This document shows, piece by piece, positions 1 through 49,345 of a DNA stretch of 64,000 bases. The DNA comes from Scleroderma bovista (lineage: Eukaryota > Basidiomycota > Agaricomycetes > Boletales > Sclerodermataceae): assembly GCA_037178675.1 (NCBI GenBank), contig JAYMGJ010000258.1, positions 1 to 64,000 of the forward strand. The letters run 5' to 3'. Made by a program: the position numbers and the translations under genes. Every line of letters starts with the position of its first letter. Position 1 is the stretch's first letter. A model generated the notes under the pieces. That model was not told the DNA's origin, ran no database searches, and saw nothing but the letters and a program-made list of their open reading frames with translations.

Positions 1-1016
1 GGATGACCGGGATGTAGGGGATGCCATCTGCATCTGTTGGAAGGTCGAACCGCGGGCACCTTTTACATTTGACAATCTTTCTTGGAACCGCATCCTCGGT
101 ATCTTCACCACTTTCTTCCTCCACACCAAAGACCTGGTGAGCATATCGCTCCCACTTGTTCTCCACGCTGTCCCAGCCCTCAAAGAGTTTCCCATCACCC
201 AATTCGTCATTGAAGTCGTGCCTATGTGTTTCAGTAATAATATATGCAGTCATTAACCACGCTCACAGGCCATACATAACATCCCCCACGGCACCTTTCC
301 AAGCAGCCATCACAACCACTCTGGCACCACATTGTTTCCACATTTCCTTTGAAAATTGCACGGGCAAACTTCCGACCTTTTCCTTCCGCGGTTCTATCTG
401 AAGTTTCAGTACCATGCTGCCACAGGATAAGAGTCTCACCTTGCTTGGATCTCTGGGGGGGGGGGTGGGTATCATTCCATTCCTTGGCTGTCTTTTCTGC
501 CCGCTCGATGTTCTCCGCGGTCAGTCTCTTTATCACTTTGCCCACCGCCCTCTGATAATTTTTAATATACCCGCTGGAACCCGGTGCATGTCCTGCTCTG
601 GCAAGCACATCATCTATTTTTGCCTTCTCTTGGTCCGCTATTACCATGCGGGCGGTCCACCTGCGGCCATATTTGATGAGCTGTTTTTTCTTCCGAGTGC
701 GAGAGTGATTATACAGCCAATTCTGAATGGCCTATGAAAATACAAAATAAGCCAACCTCTCCATAAGTGAGGGATCACTCACCTTCTTCTTTATCACCCA
801 TTGGTGACTCTTGAGTGTCCTGTTGGCCTCCAGCCTTTGAACACTGCTTGCAATGTCCTTGAAAATGGACTTCCTTTTTGTTGCGTCAGCCGCCATCCAC
901 TGTTCCAGTTTCTCCTGGACAATGACGACCTCATCTTTGCGAAGGGGGGTCTTGCCTTGCCCAGTGGCATCAGACCTCTCACCGCTATCGCTCTCACTGT
1001 ACTCAGATTCGGACAT
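1..1016 (-). pseudogene. KDZ-linked accessory gene, copy 1 (3' part outside window, frameshifted)
   Basis: Divergently transcribed partner of the KDZ transposase at 1443. Three exons are readable on the minus strand: 1016-783, 731-267 and 221-1, with GTGAGT-type donors and TAG acceptors. The product starts at the ATG at 1016 with an acidic Ser/Glu/Asp-rich stretch, then a basic Arg/Lys region and a conserved globular part; it continues past base 1. The same gene occurs in copy 2 (34676-37484). I recognise it as a gene type found next to KDZ transposases in mushroom genomes, but I know of no assigned function. Exon 2 carries one extra base near 355 relative to copy 2, which throws the frame. 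An 11-base G run (455-465 on +) lies in the same exon and is 16 long in copy 2. Confident as a homologue of copy 2; not confident about any role. Confidence 0.7.
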
Positions 1017-1442
1017 GGGTGAGGTGGAATCTTTGCAGCGAGTTCCCAATTCCGGCACACATACTGGCCTGTTGATTGAAGTTCACGTGGTCACTTGCTT
1101 CCCATGTCACAGGGACCCTTGATCTTACTTTACCATGTATGGGCAGATGTAATACAGCGCCCGAGGAATATTTGGTAAGGTTCCCTGGGTATCTGCAAAG
1201 GTCTTACCATACATGGAAAGGTCCATGTTGCTCAGGGTCCATTTTGACAATGCTTGTGTGCCAATCTCAAGATCTCAGGCCGTAATTGGTAAGGTTCCAT
1301 TTGTGCCTGATCGCGGTCCCGACCGAGTGGATTGACACTGGAGGATCCCAATCCGATGCAGTTGGTCGAGTTCAAGGTATTGCAATGAGGCATTTCAAGG
1401 TTAAAAGTGGTCGTTTTGTGAGCTTCACATCCAGAGACAGTC
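1017..1442. promoter_or_regulatory. Shared divergent upstream region of KDZ transposase and accessory gene (copy 1)
   Basis: This 426-base gap separates two start codons facing away from each other, so it should hold both promoters. It contains an inverted pair, CCATGTATGG near 1132 and CCATACATGG near 1206, and a direct repeat GGTAAGGTTCC near 1176 and 1289. Copy 2 (37485-37910) keeps most of this but its second inverted arm has one change. I see no convincing TATA box. Promoter function is inferred from position only. Confidence 0.45.
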
Positions 1443-4400
1443 ATGGGGAAGTCCAAGGTAGTAAAAGTAGGCCCCTCTACACCTGTAACACAGGTGACAT
1501 GGAAGACAGTAAGATCTGGTAGACAGTCCAAGGACAAGATTGTCAAGGCTCCACCCCGGAAAAAGGCACGCATTGAAAGAGCTGATGATCAGTCTCCCAC
1601 TCGCGCTGGTTCATCGGCATTGGAGCACACCAGTTTCCTTCCAGATGAGCCTGTAGAGGCATATTCTATGACAGATGATCCACCCCTGCGAGCATGTAAA
1701 TTGCCAAGGAACCAGGTCTGATGCACCTTCCACACTCTTAATATATATCTCATCGAATCATAGGACCACTATCTGCGAGACTGGCTGCCCTGGAAAGGCA
1801 AATATTTGTCAGTGCTCCTGGAAATGGAGGCACCCCCTGCATCAAGGATCTGTATGCGGTGTGGAAAGGATGGGGCAATTAGGTGCACTGAATGTGCTCA
1901 TAGGCCAATCTTCTGCACAAACTGTTGCCTTGATACACACGAGGTCGGTCCCTTCCATCGGATTCAGAGGTGGACTGGAAGCTTCTTTGAGGACTTCTCT
2001 CTTCGCCTGGTGGGTCAGTTCTTTCACCATATCCACATGTTAATTAATAAAGCAGATTGGATTTGTAATGCACTTGGGCCACGGTGGAAAACCATGTCCT
2101 AGTGGAGGGTATAGCCGCGGGAATAATGCAAGTGATGATGAAGATGCTTGGGAAGATGTGGAGGACGATGGGAGCCCACCTCATCTAGCTAGACCATGGG
2201 ACCGAAGTTTCCTAACTTTGGTGCACACTAATGGGGTGCACTTTTGCGACATTTGGTACTGCAGCTGTGATGGTTCAGAGGATTCACATCTGCAACTTAT
2301 GATGGCTGGCCTTTTCCCTGCGACAACAAAAAGTCCCAGGACTGCATTTACCTTCCAGGTGCTGGATGATTTTATCCGGGACAATGTGGAATGTGGCACC
2401 ACTGCGATGAACTACTATAGTAAATTGCAGAGACTAACATCCAATGCATTCCCACATGCGGTGCCAGTAAGTGAAGTAACCTTTTGTTTACCGCGGCACT
2501 GACACCGCGGATGAAATAGAATAGGTACAGAGATCTGCTGAGGTTGTCAAGGGCATGGAGATTGTTGAAGCTTCTCAAGTGGCAAGGATTCCACGGAATC
2601 TCGGAGGAACCTGGGCCAGGGGAGCTGGTCCTCTTTTGCCCCGCATGTCCCCAACCTGGGGTAAATTTACCGCCCGCGGGAGGGGTCGATCTCACACAGT
2701 GAGTATAGGTTGTAATTATTCTATTATTTGCAAATACAACTGATTTGTACAGCTGGAAATATTCGAGGATCATTGCTATGGATGGAAATTTCAAAGCCGA
2801 ACATATGTTGCTCAAACAAGCTCCAAACGAAGTCTGGTTGATGGATGAAAAAGGGTTCATGGTAACATCACAGCCTTATAAGTCCTATTTAGCAGGAAGT
2901 GCAAATCGAGTGGAGGTATGACCTCTTTTACTTGAGCCACGGTAATTCCTCATGTTGCCATTAGAAATCGGACTGTAGCAATCATTGTGCGGTCAATCAG
3001 GCCAATACTAGTCGAAGTCAGTTGGCATCAACTGGAATTGGTGGATGTGCCTGTGCTAGACATGGGTGCTTTGTTCCGCATGCCATGGTTGATTTCCAAA
3101 AAGGAGAGCAGTATGTCCGCGGCTCCCATATAAAATCGCTTCATTGACCCGCGGATAGGCAAGTCAACATGGATTATTCCTTGGTGCATGCAGTGCATCA
3201 CAGAATGGACCACCAACAGCGGGTGGTAAACTTCTATGACATCAATTGTCAATACAGCAAAAACCTGTATCGGCGTATAGAAGAGAACCGGTTTTTGTCT
3301 CTCCCACCCAGACTGAAGATTCAACCCGGCATTGGTATATGGCATGTCCATGGACATCAATCGGAATGTTTCATGAGGTATTCCCCTAATTTCATTCCTG
3401 GAGTAGGCAATGTGGACGGGGAAATAATGGAGACTCTCTGGTCGTCCTTAAATATTATTTCCCCCTCCACCCGGGGAATGGCTGCCCCTCATCGGCAGGA
3501 AATGCTGGACTTCCAAATGAATGACAGTAATTTCTTGAAGATGGTCCGCATGCGTGAGTGATCCTTAATTGCGGGTATTGCACCGGTATTCAAATATTCC
3601 AGCTTTGTCATTGAAGAGGAAACTAACTGCCGCCCAACGGAATCTTTCATCATCTCGTTATGCCTTTGCTACTTTGGATACAACTGTGCCTGAAGACATT
3701 CGTGATATTTGGAAGGCCCAAGAGTCGAAGGCACTTGTGGAGAGGCTATCCAATCCAACGGCCATGGATATATTTGAAGTTCGGTTAGAAAAGGGTATGT
3801 CCTCGTGTAATACATACAGAACAAGGCTGAAATCCCATGGCAAGCACCAAGTATTAAATCCATGGAGATTAGCCTCATAGAAATGCAAGCCGCGGCAGGG
3901 GCACTGCGAGGATCCGCCACATGGATGGCAAGGGCCTTGAAGGTGGAGGAGTCTCAGATAGTGCTCTTATTGGATGCACGCAGGATCGATTCAAGAACTA
4001 CCGAAAGCCAAAGGCTTGACATTTCCCGCCGTCACGACAGGCTACAGTCTCAAATCAATAGCTTGTTGCAGACCGCGGCACCATTTGTTGGGGCCGACTG
4101 GGACAGTGGACTTGATAGCCGTGACAATGGTGACCCAGGGAGTGATGAAGATGGTATTTTCGTTACTGTATCCCCAGGGAATGCAGAACATGCCATACTG
4201 CCGCTGCCTTCCTATATGGGATTGCGGCGGTGCGGTGAATTGGAGCTGAATGGCCTGGTGGAGCAAGAACTTCAGCTCAGACAAGGCCAGGCCAATGATG
4301 CTCTGCATGAAATACGGCTTGCTCTCGCAGACAAGGCAATTTTATTTCGCACAGAGGTCCAACATGGGAAAAACTATGCTGTGACAACCCGCGCTTGGAA

Positions 4401-4929
4401 AAAGGTATCGGACCTGGACACCTTGGTCAAAAGATATTCCGCGGTCTATAATCAGTGTCGAAAGCAAATGGTTGCTTTGGGAGCTGACCAAAGCATTCTT
4501 GACCGGTATCAAATACTGAACAAGAAGGATCTCACAGTGAGTACCGCGGTGTCCGATCCCAATGCAAGGGGCCATCGCCATGACTCCTTGGCATGGTTCT
4601 GGACTATGGACATTCCAAAGGACACTGATAAAAATGATTGGATGTCAGAGTGTAAGCTTTGAAATCTTCGGTCATATATACCTACTTAACAATTTCAAAT
4701 AGTTTACCGGGTTCATTGGTTACGGGCAAAGGCAAGACAAGATCGATGGACTGAGGAGGTGGACCTCATAATTTCAGAACAGGGTTGGACACATAACTTC
4801 TTCAGAAAGCGGGCAAACTTCTGGGAGGAAAAAGCAGCGAAAGCAGCATTGGACTGTGACCGCGGCATGGCATGTTATTCAGCAAGGCAATATGACATGT
4901 ACAACAAATTGAGTAAACTTTGCCAATAG
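1443..4929 (+). CDS. KDZ-superfamily transposase with CxC2 cysteine cluster (copy 1)
   Basis: Cut-and-paste transposase of the Kyakuja-Dileera-Zisupton group. My exon model is 1443-1715, 1764-2009, 2053-2466, 2520-2698, 2753-2915, 2965-3110, 3159-3553, 3603-3794, 3845-4651 and 4703-4929. It sums to 3042 nt (1013 residues) with no internal stop. Order: basic N-terminus; CxC2 zinc cluster at about residues 121-160 (CMRC, CTEC, CTNCC); a family block with SLRLQIGFVMHLGHGG; then an RNase-H-like core with putative catalytic Asp381 (MDGNFKAEH), Asp501 (FYDINCQ) and Glu562/565 (GEIMETLW), plus an HGHxxxC motif between the last two. The C-terminus is helical and charged. The start is the first ATG in frame after the divergent spacer. 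All introns are 43-54 nt. The second copy at 37911 has identical exon lengths, which strongly supports the model. Which KDZ subfamily is not resolved. Confidence 0.93.
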
Positions 4930-5239
4930 ATGATTGTTTGTATTATTTTTACATCCTGGGAATTGGAGATGATGAGTCGTGGCCGCGGTGTGCAAAGCTA
5001 TGGTTGGCAAACATGCTGTGCCAATATTGGTGAATAGCACTTACCCTACCATGTCACCTAAGCCCATTACCATCCAAGGCCATCCAAAATATCTCACAGG
5101 ATACTTGAGTTACTATACCTTTATGCAGCCGTGGTGTTAATGGCTTCCCCAATAAGTATTCTTTTGATTGTTCAGAAGCCACCCATTGAACACCACATGC
5201 ATAATAATTCTACATTTTATGTGTCATTATGGAATACAT
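4930..5239. other. Short spacer between convergent genes
   Basis: About 310 bases between the 3' ends of the transposase and the unknown minus-strand gene. It is AT-rich, holds one CCGCGG near 4982, and shows no coding potential. It should contain both polyadenylation regions, but I cannot place signals. In copy 2 the corresponding gap is only 77 bases (41397-41473), so most of it is dispensable. Confidence 0.5.
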
Positions 5240-6038
5240 TCAATGGTCTGTTCCCCTCCAAAGTTTGTCCGCGGACACCGCCCACTTCTCCTCCAGCTCA
5301 TCGGGAGAATCTGTTAGGTATTCCACCATGCTCATGCGGTCGACGAGATGATGTAATCGTGCATTTTGACAAAAGATCTTCTCATCCACTTCGTTCAAGA
5401 GATGCTGGGTTTGTAATTTGATATCCTCGATCCCCAACCCCGCGGTTTCATTGACTTTGAATAGGCTCGGAATGCCATAATCCCCTGGCTGCAATGAATG
5501 ATGATTAGCAATGTGTTTTCATATCGTTGTGAACTCACCTGGTTCTGCGGAAAGAATTGCTGTGCCTCTCTGACTAGCTGGCTGAGTGTTTGCCGCGGTA
5601 CCGCATTGCCAGGGATACCCCATACCCACCATTCTCCCGGTGTGGCCCATGGACTGTGGACTCTGGCTTCCGCGGGATACGCCTTGAAGACCTCGATGGT
5701 TTTGATCTGGCACATCAACGTTGGTGCATCTGGGTCCCCAATAGACACCCATTCCATGACTTGAGCTGCAACCGCGGGAACCTGCATCACCAGCCCATGC
5801 TTGTTGCACACCGCAAGTAATCGCTCCAAAATTGCCTGCAGGATTGGTCAGCCCATTTGATGTGATTGGAATTCAAGCATCGCACCACTTCCGCCAATAC
5901 ATGGGCATGCCAATCGATCTTCTCCCACAGCGAATCTTCCCCTCTCTGCTGCAAAGCATGTACGAACCGACGGAATCTGATACCCGCATATTGTAAAGTA
6001 GCCGAGAGTGTGCGTGCGTGAATACTGGAGGAATCCAT
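5240..6038 (-). CDS. Conserved KDZ-cargo protein of unknown function, 232 aa (copy 1)
   Basis: Three exons, 6038-5886, 5835-5539 and 5488-5240, give 699 nt (232 residues plus stop). Introns are 50 nt with GTGCGA and GTGAGT donors and GCAG acceptors, all in phase 0. The protein is mostly helical, with no signal peptide and no membrane segment. It has a Trp/Pro-rich middle (WATPGEWWVWGIPGN) and a C-terminal helix rich in Glu and Leu. I recognise no family or catalytic motif. It lies tail-to-tail with the transposase and head-to-head with the dioxygenase. Copy 2 (41474-42272) has exactly the same exon lengths and an open frame, so it behaves like a maintained gene of the element. Confidence 0.8.
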
Positions 6039-6909
6039 GGGTGTAGAATGGGGAGTAATGATTGATATTTATAATTGATCCACCAACATTCCCACGTACG
6101 GCCTACCATTGTTTATCAAACAATGACCCCCCACCCAGTTGGCATTGATCAATATCACCCATTGCTCCCGCGGATATATAATTAGTTCATCCCTTTTCTC
6201 CTATCTATATGTGATTAGTATGTCTGGATTTCAATTAGATATCTAATCTCCCCGCGATGACATATAACCGCGGTCGCAATATAAGTAATCTGCTGTGAAT
6301 GCCAAATGTAAAGACAGAATTGGTCAGGGAATTGACACCTCATTATTGCCTTTTTCTAATATGAATTGGCGATCTATTTTGTGAATCTCTCGCCGTGCCT
6401 AATGGCCGCGGCAAGTTGACCCATCGATAACAAATATCCCACGAGATAACAATCATTCCAATGTTGGTATTATCCTCTCTTCTTTGTCAGATAATTTCTC
6501 TCCTCCTGCATTTGATATCAGCAATCAATCATATGTACTGATACATCACCATTGTCCGATCGGTCACCACGGCTGCGAGCAACCTCTCCCATGGACTTTA
6601 TACCAACCTGTGACATTTCAAATTGTATCAATTGCTCACCTTCTTATGTATTATTTACAGGTTTGGCCAATCAATGCTTACTGATGTGGGTTCCACCTGC
6701 GGCTGATCTTCTAACATGATTTGTATCTACATGTTGGCACCGCTCCAAAACAGTAAATTCCATTTCCTGTCTTTATTTTTCCTATATAATTTATTTATAG
6801 GTTTGAATTTCGTTGATTATCCAGCCATCACCCCTCAATCTACCCGCGGTCGCCACATAAATATTCTACAATATCCTGGCTTTGCTTGTGTCCTATTTAG
6901 CTCCCCTTC
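6039..6909. promoter_or_regulatory. Divergent spacer upstream of unknown gene and TET/JBP gene (copy 1)
   Basis: AT-rich 870-base spacer between two divergent starts, so it is the presumed promoter region of both. It carries CCGCGG at about 6168, 6269, 6407 and 6845 and scattered TATATA stretches. No gene seen. Confidence 0.45.
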
Positions 6910-8169
6910 ATGGCTGCTCCTGTGTCTTACCCCACTGATTATCATCTTTCCTACCAAGTTGCTGGTTATATGCGATGCCGCTTTTGTTCCTTGGCATTCC
7001 TGGACTCTGGCACCGCGGCACCGCCTGTTCCCCTTGACCTCCCAGTTGACCTTTCCGTTGGGATGCACCAGATGGTTGCAACTTTAGTGACCGCATATAA
7101 TCATCGCAGTATGCCTCGTTCATGTCTCTTCCTCCAGTGCTCATCTGTGTCCAGTTGACTCTGGTGTTGACCTCATCCGGCTCGCTGAATCATTGGCATC
7201 CATGGAGCCTGGGACCACCGCGGATAGGGAGCAAGCCTTCCTTACCAAGTTCCCTGCTACTATTTCAGGTCTTATCGATGAACCAGCGATGATTTTGGGG
7301 GAGGGGGGAATTGTAGCTTTGTGGTATCTTCCTGGTGCCCTGGCACGCCCAACACAGGTATGATCCGATACCTCTTCTGTTCATCATTTTCTATAATACC
7401 TGTAGACAAATATTCTGCAGGCATTAAGTCCACTCCATACACAACTATCCACCAGTATAACTGGCTGGACATGGCGCTCTGACCCGCGGTGCTTTCATCC
7501 GGCACAGGCCTTTGTGACTGGTTGTTTGGAGCTTTCTCCTGCAAGGCATCAAATGGGTCATTATGTGAGTGCTTACCATTCCTGCCATACATTTGTTAAT
7601 GAAAATATATTCAGCATGAAAATGCTTCCATGTCCAGGGACCTTAATACCGCCGCGGGATTCCAGTGGTTACAAGCTATGGTTCAGCCGACCTCAATTAT
7701 ATCGGGTGCATTGTCAATCATGCATCCACAGCTGTATGACGATGGAATGCGAGGAATTAAACTATTGGGAGATTGGTCTTCCACAAATGACCCCGGCATG
7801 AACAGGGCCTTATCCCTCTGGCCCACCCCATTTACCAATATTTCCCTTATTGCAAACCGGTCCACCCCCCTCCACCGTGATCCCCAATCCCGTGCCAGTT
7901 GGTACGATGTCATAGTAAACGTGGGTGAATACACTGACTGTGTCATGGCCATCCCTACCCTTGGCATCGAGCTGGTGTACAAGCCAGGTACCGCGGTCGC
8001 ATTCTCCGGGAGGCTTCTTAGGCACGGGGTAAATGCTGTAGAAGGAAACCGGCACTGTTTGACCTACTATATGAGGGATAACATTCACCATTGGGTAAGG
8101 GTTCCAAGGTGTGCGGATTGGATGAGGATTGATAGTGTGGAGAGGTTGTTGAGGCCTACCATACTGTAA
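6910..8169 (+). CDS. TET/JBP-family 2-oxoglutarate/Fe(II) dioxygenase (copy 1, intact)
   Basis: Predicted nucleic-acid base dioxygenase of the fungal TET/JBP group, which oxidises 5-methylcytosine; it would act in the nucleus on DNA. Exons 6910-7108, 7155-7357, 7421-7564 and 7615-8169 sum to 1101 nt (366 residues). The catalytic double-stranded beta-helix is in the last exon. Metal ligands His269 and Asp271 lie in LHRDPQ, followed by WYDVIVNVGEY. The second histidine, His319, lies in GTAVAFSGRLLRHGV. A candidate 2-oxoglutarate-binding arginine is Arg328, before the YYMRDNIHH signature. The N-terminal exon has a CxxC pair (CRFC) and no other recognisable domain. TET/JBP genes linked to KDZ transposons are known in basidiomycetes (Iyer and colleagues, 2014). 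The substrate is inferred from the family. Family call is firm; exon 1 is less certain than the catalytic exon. Confidence 0.88.
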
Positions 8170-9086
8170 ATACTGGAAAGGAATTTGTAGAGCTGGGATG
8201 TATATTACTATTGATATCTCTTCATAGGAGAATTAGCAAATGCACATGGAGTGGAATTTTAGAAATGATATTGTGTGCTACAGGTGTCTGGCAACATTGC
8301 CGCGGCTACTCAGGGTTGCTTATTGGAGAAACAACACTTATTTCACCACGGGTTATCCATATGATACATGGCTGTATGTATACCTGGTACATCAGTGGTG
8401 TCCCGCAGGTATGTCTAGGGCAATCATTGTTGTGTTGATTCCGCTGCGAATTCAGTTTGTTGGGACTACTTTGTGCATTTATTCTACTACCACGGCTTCT
8501 TTCAGGTGCGGCATGTTGCTGCGGCCATTTTGACATACCTTATGCCCAGATATCAGTCTCCGTGAGCCCAACTATTACTGTCGGCCAGTCATATATGGGC
8601 CCATCCACGTTCGATAGAAACACCATATGTCAGCCTAGCCATGTCAATGCGGGTTAGAAATTATGTGCCCCCTCCGTTGGGTCCGAGGCCAATGTTATTT
8701 TGGCCAACTGGTATTCCAGGTCACAACAAATCTATAGCCCACCCTTGACACACCGGATGATGCAGGTATCCACTGGCTCACCATATCTCATTGGACCCAT
8801 CACACCTCAGCCCACCTGTACTACTCAGCATCACGAAATATGGGCTCACCTATACCTTAGTGACAGTTTTACCTTGGCTGGCCCATATGCTACGGCACCG
8901 GGTAATAATAGCCTGTCCATCTCAAATGAGAACATCATAGTGTAAGCTCACTCGTGGTATACGACCTTAATAGATATGGGCTACCCTTGGTTCAGGGGAC
9001 ATTGCTATTTTGGCTGATGTACATGATGAGGGACAGTATATTCAAAGCCCACCCGTGCTACATGGGATAATGGCATCATATATGGG
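8170..9086. repeat. KDZ copy 1 tail, degenerate minisatellite (left of Gypsy insertion)
   Basis: Non-coding stretch built from loosely repeated units of about 40-60 bases with the core phrases 'gcccaccc', 'ctactcgggatga' and 'tatgggctcacc'. The same text follows the dioxygenase in copy 2 (44358 onward). The last five bases, ATGGG, are the left target-site duplication of the Gypsy element. No gene. Confidence 0.7.
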
Positions 9087-9441
9087 TGTCAAGTCCGGGT
9101 CTACTCCAGTAGGGGGTCCGGTCAAGTCCAGACGAGCGCGGACGAAGGGGGAGAGCAGAGGGCTGGACAAGAGATTAGTCTGGCCGGAGTTGGTGACCGC
9201 TTGGATTCAACAACTAAGGACAACGAGCGTTGATCCCTTGCGTAGGTTCCGGTCAAGAAGGGGAGACGGAGACAGAGATGGAGATGGGCAAGATCAGGAG
9301 TAGAGACTATGGTTGTAGTTAGCAGAAGGTTATCTGTGCGACCGTTGACCGGAGTAACTGAGAACGACCGGAGTTGAGCTGTAGGCCTGCGATGTGACCG
9401 GAGTAACCGGATATGATCCGGAGTTGGACATGGTCGTAACA
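9087..9441 (-). repeat. 3' LTR of the Gypsy element
   Basis: 355 bp, begins TGTCAAGTCC and ends CGTAACA. It pairs without gaps with 16013-16367. Confidence 0.97.
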
Positions 9442-9606
9442 GTATCCCCCTTTTAGGGGCCGAACCCATGAGGCCCCAATGAGGCTGTCGTGTGGTCGCT
9501 TAGAACAATGCGGAGTACCGGAGTGTTGTCTGAGTACGAATTATGGATCTATAAAGATCAGACTGGTTTTGCTTGTTACCCCCAGTTTTCTTTCCGTGAT
9601 CCTAAC

Positions 9607-10646
9607 ATGTCGGCCACTGCTAAGTCCACCAGCCCCGTTGCCCCCATTGCCACCGAGTCCAGGGATTGGACGAAGGCCTCGACACCGGAGTTACAGTCCG
9701 GTAGCGAGGACGAATCCGACGTTCTCGACACCAAAGCGAAGGAGCGCCGTCATCGCAAGCAAGTGAAGAGGGAGAAGAGGCAACGTAGGGAGGAGGCGGA
9801 GAGGCGAGCGCACGAAGAGGCGGAGGCAAGGGCTCGCGAGGAGGCAGAGCGTGCCAAGGCGGAGGCGGAGCAGAAAGCGAGAGAGCAGGCGGAGAAGGAC
9901 AGGGCGGAGGTGCAGCGGAGGGCTGCAGAGGTTGCAGCAAGGCAGAGGGCGCTGGCACAGGAAGTGTCAAGGAAACGAGCAAGGGAGGAGCCGGAGGCAG
10001 GTCCGGTTGGAGAGGTCCGGTAAGCAACTTCAATTCTTTCTTTCATCTTCGTTACTAACCGTTACGCAGATGCGTGCGCTGCGCGAAGCACCGCGCAGTG
10101 TGTGAGCGAGACCCGGAGAAACCCAAGCAGAGGGCGTGCATGAAGTGCGCCGGATTAAAGGAGAAGTGTGAGTGGCCGGAGGTGGGGGAACCAGGTCCGG
10201 TAGTAGACAAGGGAAAAGGCAAGGCAAAAGAGCAGGGCACGGCGACGTCACCGCGAGGCGGTGAGAAACGGAAGAAGAAGAAGACGGCGAAGATCGTCAT
10301 CGACGACGACGAGATAGTGGAGGTGGCGGGTCCGTCCAGCTCCAAGTCCGGACTCAACTCCAGGGTCTTCCTGGAGCGGATGGACAAGCTGACAGCCGCG
10401 GTGGAGGCGATGACTGGGCAGATGGCCCGGATCGCGGACTCCACACGATCCGTGTTGCGGTCCAACGACCGCCTGAGCACTGGCCTCGAGACCTTTCTCG
10501 AGGAGTGCCGTTTCTTCACGGCGCCTTGGGACGAAGATGAGGAGTCGGAGGATAGTGAGGCGGAGGTCGACCCGGAGGAGGTCGAACAGGAGGTACAGGG
10601 GCTCCAAGAGGAGCAGGAGAATCCTGACAGCGGTGTGCTGGAGTGA
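9607..10646 (+). CDS. Antisense Zn2Cys6-like coiled-coil protein carried by the Gypsy element
   Basis: Two exons, 9607-10019 and 10070-10646, joined across a 50-nt intron (GTAAGC donor, CTAAC branch site, GCAG acceptor), give 990 nt (329 residues). The N-terminal half is a long Glu/Arg/Ala coiled coil. The exon junction leads directly into a cysteine cluster, C-x2-C-x6-C-x11-C-x2-C-x6-C (CVRCAKH ... ACMKCAG ... KCEW), the spacing of fungal binuclear zinc clusters. A basic stretch, an acidic patch, a helical segment and an acidic tail follow. It lies inside the element, antisense and convergent to pol. Splicing restoring a perfect cluster across the junction argues that it is a real gene. Family link is by motif; role unknown, possibly transcriptional control or capsid-related. 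Confidence 0.72.
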
Positions 10647-10806
10647 TTGGTCCGGTCCGGGTCTTTGTAAATAGAAATGTAAATTAGTTTTACTTTTGTT
10701 TATAAGAGAAGTGGCTTTGACTTGGGAGTGAGTGATATTACAAAGTGAAACAGATAGGGGAAACAGATAAGAGAAACAGATAAGGGAAACGGAGGCGAGA
10801 GTAATA

Positions 10807-37910: not shown

Positions 37911-40900
37911 ATGGGGAAGTCCAAGGTAGTAAAAGTAGGCCCCTCTACACCTGTAATGCAGGTGACATGGAAGACAGTAAGATCTGGTAGACAATCCAAG
38001 GACAAGATCATAAAGGCTCCACCCTGGAAAAAGGCACGCATTGAAAGAGCTGATGATCAGTCTCCTACTCGAGCTGGTTCATCGGCATTGGAGCACACCA
38101 GTTTCTTTCCAGATGAGCCTGTAGAGGCATATTCTACTACAGATGATCCACCCCTGCGAGCATGTAGATTGCCAAGGAACCAGGTCTGATGCACCTTCCA
38201 CACTCTAAATATATATCTCATCCAATCATAGGACCACTATCTGCGAGACTGGCTGCCCTGGAAAGGCAAATATTTGTCAGTGCTCCTAGAAATGGAGGCA
38301 CCCCCTGCATCCAGGATCTGTATGCGGTGTGGAAAGGATGGGGCAATTAGGTGCACCGACTGTGCTCATAGGCCACTCTTCTGCACCAACTGTTGCCTTG
38401 ACACACACCAGCTTGGTCCCTTCCATCGGATTCAAAGGTGGACTGGAACCTTCTTTGAGGATTTCTCTCTTCGCCTGGTGGGTCAGTTCTTTCACCATAT
38501 CCACATGGTAATTAATAAAGCAGATTGGATTTGTGATGCACTTGGGGCACGGTGGAAAACCATGTCCTAGCGGAGGATATAGCCGTGGTAATAATGCAAG
38601 TGATGATGAAGATGCTTGGGAAGATGTGGAGGACGATGGGAGCCCACCTCATCTAGCTAGACCGCGGGACAGAAGTTGCCAAACTGTGGTGGACACTAAT
38701 GGGGTGCACTTTTGCGACATTCGGTACTGCAGCTGCGATGGTTCAGAGGACTCACATCTGCAACTTATGATGGCTGGCCTTTTCCCTGCGACAACAAAAA
38801 GTCCCAGGACTGCATTTACCTTCCAGGTGCTGGATGATTTTATCCGGGACAATGTGGAATGTGGCACCACTGCAATGAATTACTATAGTAAGTTGCAGAG
38901 ACTGACATCCAATGCATTCCCACATGCGGTGCCGGTAAGTGAAGTAACCTTTTGTTGACCGCGGCATTGACACCGCGGATGAAATAGAATAGGTACAGGG
39001 AGCTCCTGAGATTGTCAAGGGCATGGAGACTTTTGAAACTTCTCAAGTGGAAAGGATTCTATGGAATGTCGGAAGAACCAGGGCCAGGGGAACTGGTCCT
39101 CTTTTGCCCGGCATGTCCCCAACCCGGGGTCAATATGCCACCTGTGGGAGAGGTGGATCTCACACAGTGAGTATTGGTTGTAATTATTCCATAATTTACA
39201 TATATGACTGATCTGGACAGTTGGAAGTATTCAAGGGTCATTGCCATGGATGGAAATTTCAAAGCTGAACATATGTTGCTCAAACAAGCTCCAAATGAGG
39301 TCTGGTTGATGGATGGAAAAGGATTCATGGTAACATCGGAGCCTTATAAATCCTATTTAGCAGGAAGTGCAAATAGAGTGGAGGTATGATATCCTTGACG
39401 CATGCCGCGGTATGTTCTGATGCCGCAGTTAGAAATCGGACTGTAGCAATCACCGTGCGGTCAATCAGGCGAATACTAGTAGAAGTCAGTTGTCATCAAC
39501 TGGAATTGGTGGTTGTGCCTGTGCCAGACATGGGTGCTTTGTTCCACATGCCATGGTTGATTTCCAAAAGGGAGAGCAGTGCGTCCGCGGTTCCAAAATA
39601 AAGAGCTTTATTGACCCGCAGGTAGGCAAGTCAACATGGATTACTCCTTGGTGCATGCAGTGCATCACAGAATGGACCACCAACAGCGGGTGGTAAACTT
39701 CTATGACATCAATTGTCAATACAGCAAAAACCTGTATCGGTGTATGGAAGGGAACTGGTTTGTGTCTCTCCCACCCGGATTAAAGATTCAACCGGGCATT
39801 GGTATATGGCATGTCCATGGACATCAATCGGAATGTTTTGTCAGGTATTCCCCTAATTTCATTCCTGGAGTAGGCAATGTGGACAGGGAAATAATGGAGA
39901 CTCTCTGGTCGTCCTTAAATATTATTTCCCCCTCCACCCGGGGAATGGCCGCCCCTCATCAGCAGGAAATGCTGGACTTCCAAATGAACGACAGTAATTT
40001 CTTGAAGATGGTCCGCATGCGTGAGTGATGCTAAATATGGGATATGGCGACCGCATTCACGCATTCCAGCTCTGTCTTTGAAGAGGAAACTGGTTGCTGC
40101 ACAAAGAAATCTGGCATCCTCTCATGATACCTTTGCAAATTTGGATGAAACTGTGCCTGAAGACATTCGTAATACTTGGATGGCCCAAGAGAGGAATGCA
40201 CTTGTGGAGAGGTTATCCAATGCAAAGGCCATGGATATATTTGAAGTCCAGTTGGAAAAGGGTAGGTCCTATGGCAACAAGTACAGAAAAAGGCTGAAAT
40301 GACACGGAAAGCACCGAGCATTAAATCCATGGAGATTAGCCTCATAGGAATGCAATCCGCAGCAGGGGCACTGCAAGGATCCGCCACATGGATGGCAAGG
40401 GCCTTGAAGGTGGAGGAGTCTCAGATAGTGCTCTTATTGGATGCACGCAGGATTGATTCAAGAACTACCGAAAACCAAAGGCTTGACATTTCCCGCCATC
40501 GCGACAGGCTACAGTCGCAAATCAATGGCTTGGTGCAGACCGCAGCAACATTTGTGGGAGCTGACTGGGACAGTGGACTTGATGCCTGCGAACATGGTGA
40601 CTCAGGGAGTGATGAAGATGGTACCTTCATTACTGTATCCCCTGGGAATGCAGAACACACCATACTGCCACTGCCTTCCTATATAGGTTTGCCGTGGTGT
40701 GGTGCATTGGAGCTGAATGGCCTCATAGAGGAAGAACTTCAGCTCAGACAAGGTCAGGCCAATGATGCTCTGCATGAAATACAACTTGCTCTTGCAGACA
40801 AGGCAGTCTTATTTTGCACTGAGGTCCGACATGGCAGAAACTATGCTGTGACAACCCGCGCTTGGAAAAAGGTATCGGACCTGGACACCTTGGTCAAAAG

Positions 40901-41396
40901 ATATTCCGCAATCTATAATCGGTGCCAAAAGCAAATGGTTGCGTTGGGAGCCAACCAAAGTATTCTTGACCGGTATCAAATACTTAACAAGAAGGATCTC
41001 ACAGTGAGTACCACGGTGTCCGATCCGAATGCAAGGGGCCATCGCCATGACTCCTTGGCATGGTTCTGGACTATGGACATTCCAAAGGACACAAATAAAA
41101 ATGATTGGATGTCAGAGTGTAAGCTTTGCAATTTTTGGTCATATATATCTACTTAATGATTCCAAATAGTTTACCGGGTTCATTGGTTATGGGCGAAGGC
41201 AAAACAAGATCAATGGACTGAAGAGGTGGACCTCATAATTTCAGAACAGGGTTGGACACACAACTTCTTCAGGAACCGGGCAAATTTCTGGGAGAAAAAA
41301 GCAGCGAAATTGGGATTGGACTTTGACCGCGGGATGGCATGCTATGCAGCAAGGCAATATGACATGTACAACAAATTGAGCAAACTCTGTCAATGA
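37911..41396 (+). CDS. KDZ-superfamily transposase with CxC2 cysteine cluster (copy 2)
   Basis: Exons 37911-38183, 38232-38477, 38521-38934, 38988-39166, 39221-39383, 39433-39578, 39626-40020, 40070-40261, 40312-41118 and 41170-41396. Every exon has exactly the length of its counterpart in copy 1 (3042 nt in all), although introns and many codons differ. The CxC2 cluster (CMRC, CTDC, CTNCC) and catalytic motifs (MDGNFKAEH, FYDINCQ, the GNVDREIMETLW form of the third motif, and HGHxxxC) are retained. In the third motif the residue before EIMET is Arg instead of Gly; the two glutamates remain. No stop or frameshift seen, so this copy could supply active transposase even though its neighbours are broken. 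Confidence 0.93.
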
Positions 41397-41473
41397 TTAT
41401 GTGTTAAAATATCACCCGAGGCACAAACAATGCATACTAGTTCTACAATTTACATGCAATTATGGAACACCAT

Positions 41474-42272
41474 TCAATTGTCCTTTCCACTCCAAAGTTT
41501 ATCCGTGGACACTGCCCACTTCTCCTCCAGCTCGTTGGCAGAATCAGTTAGATATTCCACCATGGTCATGCGGTCGACGAGATGATGTAATAGGGTATTT
41601 TGATGGAAGATCTTCTCATCGACTTCTTTCAAGAGATGCTGCATGTGTAATTTGATATCTTCAATTCCCATGCCTGGGGTTTCCGGGACATTAAATAGGG
41701 TTGGAATTCCATAATCCCCGGGCTGCAAAGAATGCTTATTAGAAATTTGTTTGCATTACCCTGTGAACTCACCTGGGTCTGCGGAAAGAATTGCTGTGCC
41801 TCTGTGACCAGCTGGCAGAGTGTTGTCCGCGGTACAACATTGCAGGGGACACCCCATACCCACCACACCCCAGGTGTGGCCCATGTACTTTGGACTCTGG
41901 CTTCCGCGGGATAAACCTTGAAGACGTCAATGGTTTTGATCTGGCCCATCAAAGTTGGTGCATCGGGGTCCCCAACAGAAACCCATTCCATCACTTGGGC
42001 TGCAACCGCAGGAACCTGCATCACCAGCCCATGCTTGTTACATGCGCCAAGTAATCGCTCCAGAATTGCCTGCAAGATTGGTCAGCCTATTCGATGTGAT
42101 GGGTAATCCAGGATCGCACCACTTCTGCCAGTACATGGCTATGCCAATCGATCTTCTCCCATAGCGAATCTTCCCCTGTCTGCTGCAAAGCATGGACAAA
42201 CCGACGGAATCTGATACCCGCATATTGCAAAGTCGCGGATAGTGTGCGTGCCTGAATAATGGAGGGATCCAT
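41474..42272 (-). CDS. Conserved KDZ-cargo protein of unknown function, 232 aa (copy 2)
   Basis: Exons 42272-42120, 42069-41773 and 41722-41474 match copy 1 in length (153, 297 and 249 nt). Open frame. Differences from copy 1 are scattered substitutions. The centre keeps the Trp-rich stretch (WATPGVWWVWGVPCN). Function not recognised. Retention of an intact frame beside a broken dioxygenase suggests it matters for the element, or was lost later. Confidence 0.8.
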
Positions 42273-43095
42273 GGGTGTAGGATGGGGAATAAAGGTGGAT
42301 ATTATAAAGGTCTATATTTATAATTTCTCCAACAACGTTCCCATGTATGGCCTACCATTGTTTATGAAACAATGACCACCCACCCAGGTCGCATTGTTGA
42401 ATATCACCAGGTGCTCCCGCGGATATATAATTGCTACATCCCTTTTGTTCCGTGTATATTTGATTAGCATATCAATGGATGATTGGATTTCAATTAGATG
42501 TCTATTCTCACCGCGGTCAAATACAACCGTGGTTGCTATATATGCAGTCTGCTATGATAGCCAAATATAAAACACAGAATTTGTCAGGAAATTGACCCCT
42601 TATTGTTCCCTTGTTATTAGCATATGAGTGAATGATTGGATTTCAATTAGATGCCTAATCTCAGGGCCGTGGTGGAATACAACCGCGGTCGCTATATATG
42701 TGGAATTGATGTTGTATACTGATATGGCATCACCATTTTCCGATCTGTCACCGCGGCTGGGCAACACACCAACAGGGTAATTCTGGTAACATTTGAAATT
42801 CTATTGATTCGTCGAATTTCTCCTTTTGGAGTAATGGTAGGTTTTACCACTCAATGCCCACCGATGTGGGTTCCACCCGCGGCTGATCTCCAACTTGATG
42901 TGAATGTATTCATATTGGCACCGTCCCAACATTGTAAATTCCATTCCATTTCTTTATTTTTCCTATATAATTTATTTATTGGTTTGAACTTTGTTGATTA
43001 TCCATAGCCACCACCCCGCCGCCATCTACCCGCAGTCTCCATATAAATATTGTTCAGTATCCTGGCTTTGCTTGGGTCTCATCTCTCTCCCCTTC
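42273..43095. promoter_or_regulatory. Divergent spacer upstream of unknown gene and TET/JBP gene (copy 2)
   Basis: About 820 bases. It contains a direct repeat of about 150 bases whose units begin GATTGGATTTCAATTAGATG at 42481 and 42634; copy 1 has only one unit near 6227. CCGCGG occurs near 42416, 42510, 42682, 42751 and 42878. No coding sequence. Confidence 0.5.
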
Positions 43096-44357
43096 ATGGC
43101 TGCTCCTGTGTCTTACCCAACCAACTACCAGCTATCTCATCAAGTTTCTGGTTATATGTGATGCCGCTTCTGTTCCTTGGCTTTCCCTGACTCTGGGACC
43201 GCGGCACCTCAAATTCCCCTTAACCTCCCAGTTGACCTTTCCGTTGGGATGCACCAGATGGTAGCCACTTTGGTTACCGCATATAATTATCGCAGTACAC
43301 CTCCTCCATGCCCCTTTCCTCGAGTACTCATCTTTGTCCAGTTGACTGTGGTGTTGACCTCATCCGGCTTTCTGAATCATTGGCATCCATGGAGCCTGGG
43401 ACCACCGCGGATAGGGAGCAAACCTTCCTTAACAAGTTCCCTGCTACTATCTCAGGTCTTATCGATGAACCAGTGGTGATTTTGGGGGAGGGGGGAACTG
43501 TAGCTTTGTGGTATCTCCCTGGTGCCTTGGCACGCCCAACACAGGTATGATTTAATACCTCTTCTGTTTATAATCTTTTATAATCCCTGTAGACAAATAT
43601 TTTGCAGGCATTAGGTCCACTCCATACACAACTGTCCGCCAGTATAACTGGCCGGACATGGTGCAATGACCCGTGGTACTTTCATTCGGAACAGACCCGT
43701 GTGACCGGTTGTTTGGAGCTTTCTCCTGCAAGACATCAAATGGGTCATTACGTGTGTGCTTACCATTCCTGCCATGAATTAATTGATAATATCATATTCA
43801 GCATGAAAATGCTTCCATTTCTGCGGACCTCAATACAGCCGCAGGTTTCCAGTGGTTGCAAGATATGGTGCAGCCAACCTCCATTATATCGGGTGCATTA
43901 TCAATCATGCATCCACAGCTGTATGAGGATGGTATGCGAGGAATCTAGTTTATTGGAAGATTGGTCTTCCGCAAACAACCTCGGCATGAATCGGGCCTTA
44001 TCCCTCTGGCCCACCGCGTTTACCAATATTTCGGTTATTGCGAACCGGTGCACCCCCCTCCACCGTGATCCCCAATCCCGTGCCAGTTGGTATGATATTA
44101 TAGTAAATGTGGGTGAATACACTGACTGTATCATGGCCATCCCTACCCTTGGCATTGAGCTGGTGTACAAGCCTGGTACCGCGGTTGCATTCTCCGGGAG
44201 GCTTCTTAGGCACAGGGTAAATGCTGTAGAAGGAAACCGGTACTGTTTGACCTACTACATGAGGGATAACATTCACCATTGGGCAAATGTTCCAAGGTGT
44301 GCGGATTGGATGAGGATTGATAGTGTGGAGAGGTTGCTGAGGCCTACCATACTGTAA
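43096..44357 (+). pseudogene. TET/JBP-family dioxygenase, copy 2 (nonsense and frameshift)
   Basis: Counterpart of 6910-8169, with exons 43096-43294, 43342-43544, 43608-43751 and 43802-44357. Two lesions: codon 22, CGA in copy 1 (6973-6975), is TGA here (43159-43161); and one extra base near 43947-43952 shifts the start of the catalytic exon out of frame with its end. Downstream the catalytic core is well kept (LHRDPQSRASWYD; GTAVAFSGRLLRHRV; YYMRDNIHH), with Gly to Arg right after the second metal-binding histidine. The gene is most likely inactive. A shorter product from a downstream start reading through the third intron cannot be excluded. Confidence 0.85.
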
Positions 44358-45663
44358 GGTGCAGAGGAGTTTATAGAACAGATGCATTTCACTATTGACA
44401 TCTCTTCCTAAGCGAATTAATAAATACACATGGAGTGGAATTTTAGAAATGATAATGCTTATCATGTTGCCGCGGCTGCTGCGTGGTTGCTTATTATGTT
44501 TCCGGACATGTCTAACCTAACTTATTGATATTTTGATGATCCATATTTCTCCTTATCATTATTCGCCCACCACTGAACACATGCCCTATAAAGTCCCGCA
44601 GGTCTTCGGAGGGAAGTCATTATTGTCTTGATTGTGCTTCCGGCTCACTTTTCTGGTATCCTACTTTGTATTTACTATAACACCGTGGCTTCTGTCAGCT
44701 GCATTCTCCTGCCGCGGCCATCTTTGGCTCACCTTATGCCTATGTACCAGACTCTGTCAGCCCATCCATCACTCTCAGCCAGTTATCTATTGGCCAATCC
44801 ACATTAGAGGGAAACACCATATGTCAGCCTACCATGTCAATGGGGCTAGATATTATGGGCCCTGCTTTGATTTACATTCCAGTGGTATTTTGGCTCACCC
44901 ATATTCCAGGTCACAAATGATTCATAGCCCACCCTTGACTCACGGGATGATGCAATTTTACATGGGCTCACCCATATTCCATTGGACAGATCAAATCTTA
45001 GCCCATCCGTGCTACTCAGTATGATGAAATATGGGCTCACCTATACCCTAGTGACTGTTCTACTTGGGCTGACCCATCTCACACGGAACCAGGTAATAAT
45101 AGCCCATCCATATCACATGAGAACATCATAATGTAAGCTCACTCATGCTACACGACCTTAATGTATATGGGCCCCCCACAGTTCAGGGGACATTGCTATT
45201 TTGGCTGACATACATGATAAGGGACAGGCTATTCAAAGCCCACCCATGCTACACGGGATGGTGACATCATATATGGGCTCACCCATATCACATTGGAACC
45301 ATCAACCCTCAGCCCACTCTTGCTACTCGTGATGATGGAATATGGGCTCCTCTGTACCTTAGGGACTTTGTTATTTCGGCTCACTCGTATGACATGGGAC
45401 TATGTAATAGCAGCCCGCCCATGTCAGATGTGATGACATAATAGGGGCCCATTCATATTCTTTGGCATCTCAAAGTTTCAGCCCACTCGTGCTACTCGGG
45501 ATGATGGCATATGGGCTCACTGGTACCTTAGGGGACAAAGTATTTCGGCTCACTCGTATCACATGGGACCATGTTGTATCTGCCTGTCAATGTGACATGC
45601 GTGTCAGCCCACTCATGCTACACCCAGCTGTTGCTCACTGCATAGTGTTATAACAACCCGCAG
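44358..45663. repeat. KDZ copy 2 tail, degenerate minisatellite left of LTR insertion
   Basis: Same kind of sequence as 8170-9086 and 16373-16930 of copy 1: repeated 'agcccacccatgctacacgggatga' and 'tatgggctcacc' phrases. It contains the uninterrupted equivalent of the Gypsy insertion site near 45270. No gene. Confidence 0.75.
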
Positions 45664-47759
45664 TGTGAGTCAAAGTGTGGACTTGGGTCGGAGTAATAAC
45701 CCAAACACAACACCAACAAAGGACTACGAAAATGTGCGAGTGGTGGTTTACCTCCGCGGTGTCCAGAGAGGATGTGCTGAGGAGGAGGGGAAGGGGATCT
45801 ACACCAACAGGGTGATGCAGACGGTGATGCAGGATACTCCTGGGGTACAGGAGTAATAGAAGACGAAGGGGATAGGGGTCTGGACTCTTCCTAAGGCCTA
45901 GGAAGTGTCAAAGCGGGGATTGGGTTGACTGAGACTGAAACAGCGATACTACACCTAGAGATTGGTGCAGCAAAGGGGCAGGGATGCCTCTGATGTCCAG
46001 AGGCGAGGAAGATTGACTGGTATGAAGCCTAGACTCTGCTTGAGCCTAGTATAAAGAATAGATCTTGAATAACTTGGATAAACTTGACAATATTGAGCCT
46101 TTAGACCTTCACTGAAGCCTACAAGGACTCAAAGACTGAAGGGATACTGATTGAGAGAGTCTGAGAGAGGGATAATTTCGTGCAATTGGGTCCTTTTTCA
46201 CTGGGCTGAGCCCAGGGGTTTAAATACATGGGGGGGCACAGCATTAAAGTACAAAAAGAGAAGGGAGTAAGCAGAATTTGTCAAGGATTGGTAAGGGATT
46301 GGTAAGAGCTTTGTAAGGGGTTTGTAAGCGATCAGTAAGCAAGGGATAAGCAGGAATGAGTAAGCATAGGAAGCATGAATAAGCTGCTGAGTAAAGGAAT
46401 GAGTAAGCTGCATGACAAGATTGATTGGTAAGGGAGTGAGTCATCAGCTGAGTAATATACCAAAAATGCGAAAGGGATAGAGTAATACTGATGACAAGAG
46501 AGCATCAGTAAGCAAGGGATGAGTCACTGCACAGCAGAAGGAGTCATTGATGCACAGCCTAAGAAGTTTGATGGGGGGCTGTGTACCATCAAGAATTTGA
46601 TGGGACAACAATGGGGAAGATCTGAGATTAATAGGGGGATTGATCCGAGACAAAACAGCCACAAGAAGGGTACCAGGGGTCCAGAGGTCTTTTTGGGGGG
46701 TCAGCATACACTAAGGTATAGTGCATGTGTTCTAGCACTGCTGAAGCGCAACCATGGGCTCCCTTGATGAGCTCTCTTCTGGGAAAGAACGAGAGAGGGT
46801 TCTTCTTCCTAATAGCACAATAAAGTGGGGGAATAACTGTCATGGTGCTGGGGGACGTTGTCTGAAAGTAGGGAAGCAGATAGAGTATTGAATTCGACAC
46901 ATCCAGGGAAGTGAGACGAACGACAGAGGAAGATGGACATGGCAAGTATCTGGGAGGAAGGGACCATAGGCTGAGGGCTCAGGGGACACAGAGACGACCA
47001 GAGAAGACTTCTCAAGCTTGACAATAGACCTAAGATGACCGAAGTACGTCCTTGACGCAGGACTGACGAGGAGAACGCGCTGACCGAGAACGAACTGAGG
47101 GAGCAGGCTGGGAAGATATGTGCCAGGCAGTGCACGGGAACTCTGGGAGAGGCTGTCCTAAGAGCAGGACATAGTGGAGATCTGCAGCAATAGCGGAGAA
47201 ATGATCCAGAGAAAATATGGACTCCATAGTGAGCAATGAAGCAAACGTCTGGATTGCGGGGGGAATATCTCCGTGGGAAATGAACGGATTTGCGTCGGAA
47301 CTTGACAGGCAGATAGACCACGCTCTAGGCTCTCTGACAGTATAGTCACGTGCCTGATAGCTTCAGAAACGACGGAGCTATTCAAAATATCGGAATGCCA
47401 GCACTGGGCGCCTAAAAATGACATTTGGGCGCTAAAAATCATTTCTTCTCTTTCTCCTTCGTTTCTCCATCAATTCTTCGGCTTCTTTGATCGTTCTGGT
47501 ATGGGAGTTGGACTGCAGACGTGTGCATTCCTTTCTCATACCACAATTGACGTTATTCCTTCAGTTTCTTCTGCTTCTTGGCGGTTCTCGTGCGATAGAT
47601 GACTGTCTGCATTGGCATTCATCTCTCGCATCAGGATAGTCGTCTTGTGCGATAGATGGCTACAATGAGGGTCCGTCGTGCTTATCCTTCGCATAAGGAT
47701 CATTCGATATAGGTGTTATCTTCCATGTTCACTGTACCAAACCTGTTTGGTGCGTGACA
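45664..47759 (-). repeat. Solo LTR of about 2.1 kb (copy A)
   Basis: Begins TGTGAGTCAAAG and ends GCGTGACA as written, so its transcription orientation is minus. Nearly identical to 53281-55374, which is inverted; more distant from 62019-64000. The flanks GCAG and GCGG resemble an imperfect 4-bp duplication within an 'aacccgcggtatg' tail unit. Open frames inside it are not conserved coding sequence. Several 'ggtaagggattggtaagagctttgtaaggggtttg' tandem phrases occur near 46290. Confidence 0.85.
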
Positions 47760-49345
47760 GCGGTATGAACTTTACCTGCGGTCAAAAACCAAGGTTCCAC
47801 TCTAACCAATACCAATGTCACGGAATTGGAGAAGATATTCCCTGTCAACTACTGTGCATAAATGCTGAGTAGGTTTTCCATCTCTGGTGTCGATAGTACA
47901 TTAAGGGCAGAGTTTAGTCCACTGGTTATAAAAGATTGTCCCTGGATGATGCATGGTGGCAACCCTTAGCATCACCCCGCGGTGGGTACTCACTCCACTG
48001 TAGTCAAACTGTTGTGTAATCAACAGCAGTGGATAGCTAACCCGCGGTATCATATGCAGTGGGTGGCCAACCATGGGTAGGTAGTGATTGCAACTGGGAC
48101 TGTGGTTGATGACCAACCCGCGGTGGGTACTCATTCCACTGGGTAGTCAACCTGTGCTGTGTAGTCAACAGCGGTGGCTAGCCAATCCTGGGTAGGTAGC
48201 TAACCCACCATATGTGTGAATCCGCGGTATCACCTACAGTGAGCAAAGCCACAATGGGTGGTCACCCCTCAGTAGATAGTTGTTTGTAGTGTAACCGCGG
48301 TTACTATTCAACCCGCGGTTGAGAGTCACTCTACAGGGTAGTCAACCCCTGATATGTATTCAACAGCAGTGGGTAGATAACCTGCGTTGGGTAACTACCC
48401 TGCGGCATTTATTGAACCCACAATGGGTACTCTGCTATGTACTCTACATGTGCTGTACTGTCAACAGCAATAGCCAGCTACTCTGTATCGAACCCGCAGT
48501 TTCATTTGGAGTGGGTAGCCAACCCAGAATGGTTGGTCACCCCTCAGTAGAGAGTCACTCTGCTTGGTAGTTAACCCCCGCTGTGTAGTAAACAGTGGGT
48601 GGATAACCTGCGGTATGTATTGAATCCACAGTGTAACCTGTAGCAGGTGGTGAACCCGCGGTGAGTACTCTGCTGTGTAGTTGACCTGTACTGTACAGTC
48701 GCTAGCTAATCCATGGTGGGAAAGTAACCTGCGGTAAGTATTGAACCCGCGGTTTCTGCAGTGGGAGTGAACCCACAATGGGCGGTCACCCCTGGGTTGG
48801 TAGTGCGACCGCGGTGTAGTCAACCCGTGGTGGAGAGTTACTCCACCGGGTAGTCAACCCCCGCTGTGTAGTCAACTGCTGGCCAACCTAACCCGCGCGG
48901 GTAGTTAACCCATGGTTAGTAGTGGGCCCGTAGTGGGCACGTGGTTTGTAGTAATCCTGCGGTGTGTGATGCCTGTGTATAGTCAGCTATAGTAGTCCAT
49001 CAATGGTAAGTAGTCAACCCGCAGTAGTCAACCCCAGTAGTTCACCCGCGGTAATGAAGCCAGTTCTGCTGGTAGGTTGATTAGATTAGTTCCTACTGTA
49101 TGCAGTAGTATCTATTTTTGCTAGCCCACCCCATACCTTTGCATTCCAGTAAATATGGGCTCATCCATTAATGTGCACCCAGTAAGATTGCGGCCCACCA
49201 ACATGACATGATGACAATTCCTATATCCCTACCATAACCCCTCCTTAACTACTACCATAGCCCACCCATATCACATGGTAACAAAATCATAGTGTGTAGC
49301 CCACCTGTATTACTCGGTGATACTCCATCCATGGGCTCCTGTCCG
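47760..49345. repeat. KDZ copy 2 tail, short-period minisatellite
   Basis: Units of about 17-20 bases such as 'tagtcaacccgcggtggg' and 'gcagctaacctgcagtgg', colinear with the copy 1 tail up to the inverted end. About ten CCGCGG. The first 170 bases (47760-47930) have no clear counterpart in copy 1. No gene. Confidence 0.78.

Follow-up and report, generated by a model that had tools for sequence, protein, structure and literature searches.

CCGCGG, a word marking one clade of TET-bearing KDZ transposons in Scleroderma bovista, as a candidate binding site of an element-encoded zinc-cluster protein

Why should a bare 6-bp palindrome, CCGCGG, be strewn through some transposons of a fungal genome and be almost missing from the sequence beside them? 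The question is raised by positions 1 to 64,000 of contig JAYMGJ010000258.1 of Scleroderma bovista (64 kb, hereafter the window), which contain two copies, E1 and E2, of a large transposon combining a KDZ transposase (PF18758) and a Tet_JBP domain (PF12851) in one element, and assigned as TET-positive KDZ elements by these domain matches only. An excess of CCGCGG marks one TET-positive KDZ clade (clade X) in this genome, and in some comparisons the sites are conserved beyond other CpG-containing words. In relatives of E2, the left arm contains a gene for a small basic protein whose six cysteines have a Gal4-like spacing; this gene and those for the transposase and TET are on opposite strands. 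The explanation we favour, with a probability of about one half, is that this zinc-cluster protein recognises CCGCGG as the binding site specific to its family and probably keeps the element unsilenced, with TET as the likely effector.

The window contains 92 CCGCGG, 90 of them in the KDZ stretches (31.6 kb including a solo long terminal repeat (LTR), 2.2 expected under a first-order Markov model), and only 2 in the remaining 32.2 kb. With inserts removed, E1 (11.6 kb) has 38 and E2 (18.9 kb) has 51 sites, whereas dinucleotide-preserving shuffles (200 per element) average 0.82 and 1.34, respectively, and reach at most 5 in either; CCGCGG ranks first among the over-represented 6-mers of E1, the E2 right arm and the E2 left arm (Poisson tail). 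The sites at 45754 and 55279 are within LTR copies and outside the KDZ element. Direct counting and shuffling thus bear out the excess described in the first-pass annotation, which had counted by hand about 30 sites in 1-8310, about 20 in 36470-44720, 13 in 29770-36400, 7 in 25447-26700 and about 18 in the two tails (direct counts 30, 21, 13, 7 and 8 + 10 = 18), one in a nested Gypsy element (at 10396) and, correctly, none in 18911-25375, 26762-29768, 49420-53280 or 55375-62000; the equal density in non-KDZ sequence that it had named as a counter-argument did not appear in the window, Markov or shuffle counts. CCGCGG is not special genome-wide (51.8 Mb, 850 contigs), since it occurs 7400 times versus 7239 for the reversed word. 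One locus (L070), chosen for the CCGCGG cluster of its contig, is GC-rich (55% GC, 193 CpG in 2.9 kb) and showed no similarity to the other loci examined, so that a CCGCGG cluster does not always represent an element, and a random 2-kb control locus contained no CCGCGG.

The motif is the 6-bp palindrome alone, with a weak flank preference for A before and T after (position -1: A 46%, T 12%); a longer motif was rejected, the flanks being only weak, and so was regular spacing, as the coefficient of variation of the gaps was 0.64-1.14 in six pieces versus 0.92-0.95 under random placement, and their evenness was matched by 0.04-0.88 of random sets. The sites are dispersed in clade X, coding open reading frames (ORFs) included, and some of the tail sites fall in diverged repeats. 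In synonymous-codon shuffles the CCGCGG count stood out in three of nine ORFs (reached by 0, 6 and 11 of 1000 shuffles), and ORF 3811-4662 has 4 sites versus 0.3 (0/1000 reaching 4); by these shuffles, codon bias as the cause is only partly rejected.

While the first-pass annotation was right about the excess in E1 and E2, it attributed the word to "the KDZ element", and the excess is a feature of one KDZ clade and not of KDZ elements in general: the 29 KDZ loci of other lineages together have 6 CCGCGG versus 10.7 expected, and a general KDZ signal was rejected on this absence of an excess. The TET-positive clades Y, Z and W are enriched 2.8-4.0x in CCGG instead of CCGCGG, despite a CxC2-KDZ stretch still approximately 67% identical in DNA to that of clade X. 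A clade Y locus, L061 (C188), carries arrays of a 17-bp unit (CTCCGGCACA...), mostly at 4880-7490 between transposase and TET, and another TET-positive KDZ element, L065 (C74), carries the repeated words CACTACACA and CAAAAATGCGGA and a local CGGCCG cluster.

Differences at the sites between copies are mostly CpG decay products (CCGCAG, CCGTGG, CCACGG, CTGCGG), and among the nine single-change neighbours of the word the two that result from such decay show the largest excess, 3.8x and 2.9x against 0.5-2.1x for the others. Between the E2 left arm and its relative L069, non-site CpGs of E2 are kept in 85% versus 99.7% of other C/G positions, which fits the expectation if the CpGs are methylated. 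Within each alignment, site retention was compared with that of further two-CpG hexamers that do not overlap the sites. From E1 to L063, 11/23 sites were kept versus 0/14 control hexamers (p 0.002; reverse 11/13 vs 0/9, p 0.0002), from the E2 right arm to L063 5/14 versus 0/12 (p 0.04; reverse 5/13 vs 0/10, p 0.05), and from L068 to the E2 left arm 7/19 versus 3/30 (p 0.03; reverse 7/13 vs 4/20, p 0.07), while the young pair of E2 left arm and L069 had no excess retention (15/20 vs 13/21 and 15/31 vs 14/31). Recent copies lose CCGCGG like any CpG, and some diverged X subfamilies keep it better than the control hexamers, a combination to be expected from selection acting on active source copies. 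The positional conservation predicted by the first-pass annotation is therefore found beyond that of other two-CpG hexamers in some diverged subfamilies, although not in all comparisons.

A candidate reader is encoded by the left arm. The Gal4-type Zn2Cys6 spacing is CX2CX6CX5-12CX2CX6-8C, and this was found in the small basic protein of L067, L068 and L069, and in 11 of the 15 rows spanning the cluster. The gene copy in E2 is broken, and the six-cysteine pattern was not found at its position. The six-cysteine scan covered all loci and the window; a match in L024, a KDZ locus of another lineage, was taken for chance, its frame having stops close upstream. Homologues of the zinc-cluster gene are present in all four clades (X, Y, Z and W), with 73 of 138 homologue places within 25 kb of a listed TET versus 14/100 in the control. 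The genome has at least 150 Tet_JBP matches.

Gal4-type Zn2Cys6 proteins have paired CGG triplets as their sites, and in CCGCGG two such triplets stand back to back, the type of site that zinc-cluster dimers read and that a dimer may read here. The small basic Gal4-like protein from the left arm would bind CCGCGG; an active element would need sites along its entire length, for which reason its lineage would keep them, while resident copies would lose them through CpG decay. The protein would most likely mark the DNA of the element that encodes it and, either by itself or via the TET of the same element, keep methylation and silencing off, and the sister TET-positive clades would use a related protein with a different word built on CCGG. 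Binding, dimer reading, TET recruitment and the anti-silencing outcome are the steps that we infer. The suggestion in the first-pass annotation of a binding site for an element protein has thus gained a concrete candidate whose binding is presumed and whose cysteines are kept in relatives, the gene copy in E2 being broken. The other suggestion of that annotation, of a methylation or TET target, is possible; the CpGs turn into TpG/CpA, which is also how methylated CpGs decay. Its interpretation is partly supported overall.

The Gypsy element nested in E1 has a six-cysteine cluster of its own (CX2CX6CX11CX2CX6C) in an accessory ORF for which the genome gives at least 150 matches and the database 334 relatives. 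This element contains 112 CCGG versus 36 expected (approximately 3x), evenly along its length, and its pol ORF has 59 CCGG versus 31.9 +- 3.9 in synonymous-codon shuffles (0/1000 reaching this). No match in the six-cysteine scan came from the LTR element at 53281, from the DDE_Tnp_4 element at 18911-25379 or from the insertion at 26759, and these three have fewer CCGG than expected (8/26.5, 8/14.9 and 1/5.5, respectively). We tentatively suggest, as an idea with odds clearly against it, a general code of addresses for the selfish DNA of this genome, in which several TET-positive KDZ clades and the unrelated Gypsy element would each carry the gene of a separate six-cysteine reader, and each would have saturated its sequence, coding regions and all, with the CpG-containing, CGG-based word that this reader recognises. 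The TET of the element, or another anti-silencing activity, would thus be aimed at the owner's copies, joint changes of reader and word would split families, and a non-owner such as Gypsy may profit by sharing or copying a word.

A number of observations weigh against the explanation that we favour. Six of the nine ORFs, with 0-2 sites each, are hardly or not exceptional (44-1000 of 1000 shuffles reach the count), and at L002, which is a KDZ locus from another lineage, CCGG occurs 10 times versus 2.0 expected; CpGs are otherwise rare in this locus, with an observed/expected ratio of 0.19, except within CCGG. Only 5 of 16 directed comparisons of site retention reached p<0.05, with small numbers and reciprocals that are not independent: E1 to the E2 right arm (15/33 vs 6/19, p 0.39; reverse 18/29 vs 5/15, p 0.11), L068 to L069 (8/21 vs 6/30, reverse 8/17 vs 8/29, p 0.21 each) and the four L067 comparisons, with 3-4 sites each, were not significant, and L062 retains just 0/13, 1/8 and 1/8 of the sites of E1, the E2 right arm and L063. 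Pfam Zn_clus (PF00172) was unmatched by the zinc-cluster protein up to an expectation value (E) of 10, and we therefore term the protein Gal4-like and not a member of the Gal4 type. Its match in the PDB was not significant, its structure model is poor (predicted local distance difference test score (pLDDT) 55.5, blocks over the cluster 68-83), and Foldseek found no match at E 10 with this model and none with a cluster-only model or a slice model. The cysteines of the Y, Z and W homologues are presumed from aligned ranges, for 65 of the 138 homologue places no TET is listed within 25 kb (56 of the 65 are on contigs without any listed TET), and in clade W the zinc-cluster gene and TET are on the same strand in 8/11 cases, unlike in X, Y and Z. 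Oxidised methylcytosine has been reported on retrotransposons as well, in passages of PMC12730594 and PMC8889193, which argues against guidance of TET, as does the Gypsy element, where a six-cysteine ORF and a CCGG excess occur with no Tet_JBP match among those listed.

The zinc-cluster protein could also bind its sites for transcription, chromatin organisation or transposition, with TET acting independently. Gal4-like proteins are classically regulators of transcription, which speaks for this possibility. The Gypsy combination does so too, and Kojima (2025, PMC12730594) speculates in the passages on Agaricomycete TETs that these have no target specificity, since oxidised methylcytosine is also found on retrotransposons. 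The sites are found throughout the element and are not confined to promoter regions, however, and in all four clades homologues of the gene are found close to TET, clearly more often than in the control, so that we consider such a TET-independent role unlikely, though worth keeping in mind. That the sites serve synapsis or transposition, with the KDZ transposase, or CxC2 as a part of it, as the binding protein, appears improbable: the element encodes both domains and some transposases bind short repeated sites, TnpA of En/Spm being a precedent, but subterminal sites would suffice for this while all 19 kb are filled, the word is missing from the 29 KDZ loci of other lineages, and the similar CxC2-KDZ DNA of Y, Z and W goes with a different word.

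Likewise, the element might be a mere carrier of a word read by a host protein or the host silencing machinery, as the CpG decay indicates DNA treated as methylated, and the yeast pleiotropic drug response element (PDRE), TCCGCGGA, is a precedent read by the host proteins Pdr1/Pdr3. Here the word is clade-specific, its flanks avoid the PDRE form (-1: T 12%, A 46%), and an attacked element should lose its sites whereas some diverged lineages keep them, which makes a host reader very improbable; identity with a yeast-type PDRE was rejected, as the flanks differ. Hardly to be expected at all is a word with no function, arising from common ancestry, the survival of CpGs in a protected context, the spread of internal repeats or codon bias. 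Related copies do share sites by descent, some comparisons gave no excess conservation, and part of the tail sites lie within diverged repeats, but base composition without CpG depletion predicts only 1.5 sites in 1-8310 and 1.4 in 36470-44720 (30 and 21 counted), and the count in ORF 3811-4662 exceeds that of all synonymous shuffles. Moreover, 7/8 of the E1 and 7/10 of the E2 tail sites have no aligned counterpart in a global alignment, and hence the density of sites outlasts alignability.

With regard to known systems, the zinc-cluster protein resembles Gal4-type Zn2Cys6 proteins (GAL4, PPR1, Pho7, 1cld) in its six-cysteine spacing, the basic residues between cysteines 2 and 3, and paired CGG triplets as the presumed site, and differs from these in having no Pfam Zn_clus match, in being encoded by a transposon and in the spread of the sites over the entire element. 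In the VANC/VANDAL system of Arabidopsis, as described in passages of Hosaka (2017, PMC5735166), an element-encoded DNA-binding protein acts with loss of methylation over the element, and the likeness extends to a short word enriched in the own family, with other words in related families (here CCGCGG in X, and CCGG in Y, Z and W), and to the occurrence of a word in an unrelated transposable element as well. According to the same passages, the VANC21 words are noncoding and often in tandem repeats, whereas CCGCGG is also found within ORFs, although clade Y does carry tandem arrays; the passages do not mention TET, and binding and demethylation were shown there while they are presumed for clade X. 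The best reading of the comparison is that the clade X element would work like VANC, with no kinship of the proteins claimed, and gene content together with this analogy makes an anti-silencing use with TET as effector likely. The TET-positive Kyakuja/KDZ transposons of Agaricomycetes share the combination of KDZ transposase and Tet_JBP in one element. Kojima (2025, PMC12730594) gives CA..TG ends and a 7-bp target-site duplication for the Kyakuja lineage and describes Kyakuja-1/2_LB as having no terminal inverted repeats, unlike E2, whose ends are approximately 75% alike in inverted orientation. The words "zinc" and "CCGCGG" have no occurrence in the main text of PMC12730594, and literature listings that cover few subscription papers contained no report of CCGCGG, or of a gene for a zinc-cluster protein, in KDZ elements.

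The features of the window are collected in Table 1. The left arm of E1 is outside the sequence, as the contig starts at the E1 right arm. While 25447-26700 and 29770-36400 had been counted as separate stretches, 25380-36458 is the left arm of E2, because L063 runs across 36459 and L069 is approximately 98% identical to this arm. The ends of E2 (25380-25582 and 49211-49413) are 75-77% alike in inverted orientation over 155-205 bp; by eye the right end reads ..TATGTG and the left end is possibly CATGCACC, and inspection by eye did not find a 7-bp target-site duplication. The DDE_Tnp_4 element between the ends of E1 and E2 contains 62-bp tandem repeats, and the LTR retrotransposon at 53281-64000 has LTRs of approximately 2.1 kb, with a solo LTR copy in E2.

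Table 1. Coordinates of elements, genes and CCGCGG sites in the window (TIRs, terminal inverted repeats)
Feature	Coordinates	Strand or location	Basis
E1, right arm of second copy, Gypsy-interrupted	1..18910	+	81-91% identity to E2 right arm in long matches
CxC2 exon, E1	2044..2502	+	PF18803, E 8.8e-27
KDZ transposase exon, E1	3148..3561	+	PF18758, E 3.2e-31
Tet_JBP exon, E1	7603..8169	+	PF12851, E 5.8e-18
30 CCGCGG sites	50..8305	E1 right arm	direct count
Gypsy element, pol on -, 1 CCGCGG	9087..16367	-	weak chromodomain match just under Pfam cut-off
Gypsy accessory ORF, six-cysteine cluster	10059..10646	+ (opposite to pol)	ORF list, six-cysteine scan
8 CCGCGG sites	16965..18293	E1 tail	direct count
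E2, large TET-positive KDZ element	25380..49419	left arm genes -, right arm genes +	relatives L063, L069; end similarity
7 CCGCGG sites	25781..26553	E2 left arm, outer part	direct count
Insertion with 110-bp TIRs (87%), 0 CCGCGG	26759..29771	in E2 left arm	empty site in L069
13 CCGCGG sites	29785..36117	E2 left arm	direct count
ORF of 309 amino acids adjoining broken zinc-cluster gene, no Pfam family	30342..31271	-	ORF and Pfam search
Broken zinc-cluster gene copy	31529..32224	-	92% identical to L069:4669-5367; one in-frame stop
21 CCGCGG sites	36508..44717	E2 right arm	direct count
CxC2 exon, E2	38512..38958	+	E 3.5e-27
KDZ transposase exon, E2	39615..40028	+	E 1.4e-29
Tet_JBP exon, E2	43593..44357	+	E 6.5e-14
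Solo LTR, one CCGCGG (45754)	45664..47759	in E2	97% identical to 53281-55374
10 CCGCGG sites	47977..49051	E2 right tail	direct count

Finally, the presence of a TET gene, a word and a reader-like protein in one family is a hint of an address system built into the element, by which it would evade silencing. This bears on how the TETs of fungal transposons find their targets: a transposon that combines a word, its likely reader and a TET would be a case of sequence-guided demethylation in nature, for the testing of which a single protein and a single 6-bp site would be enough. If true, this would also mean that sequence-specific anti-silencing arose outside plants, and from different parts.

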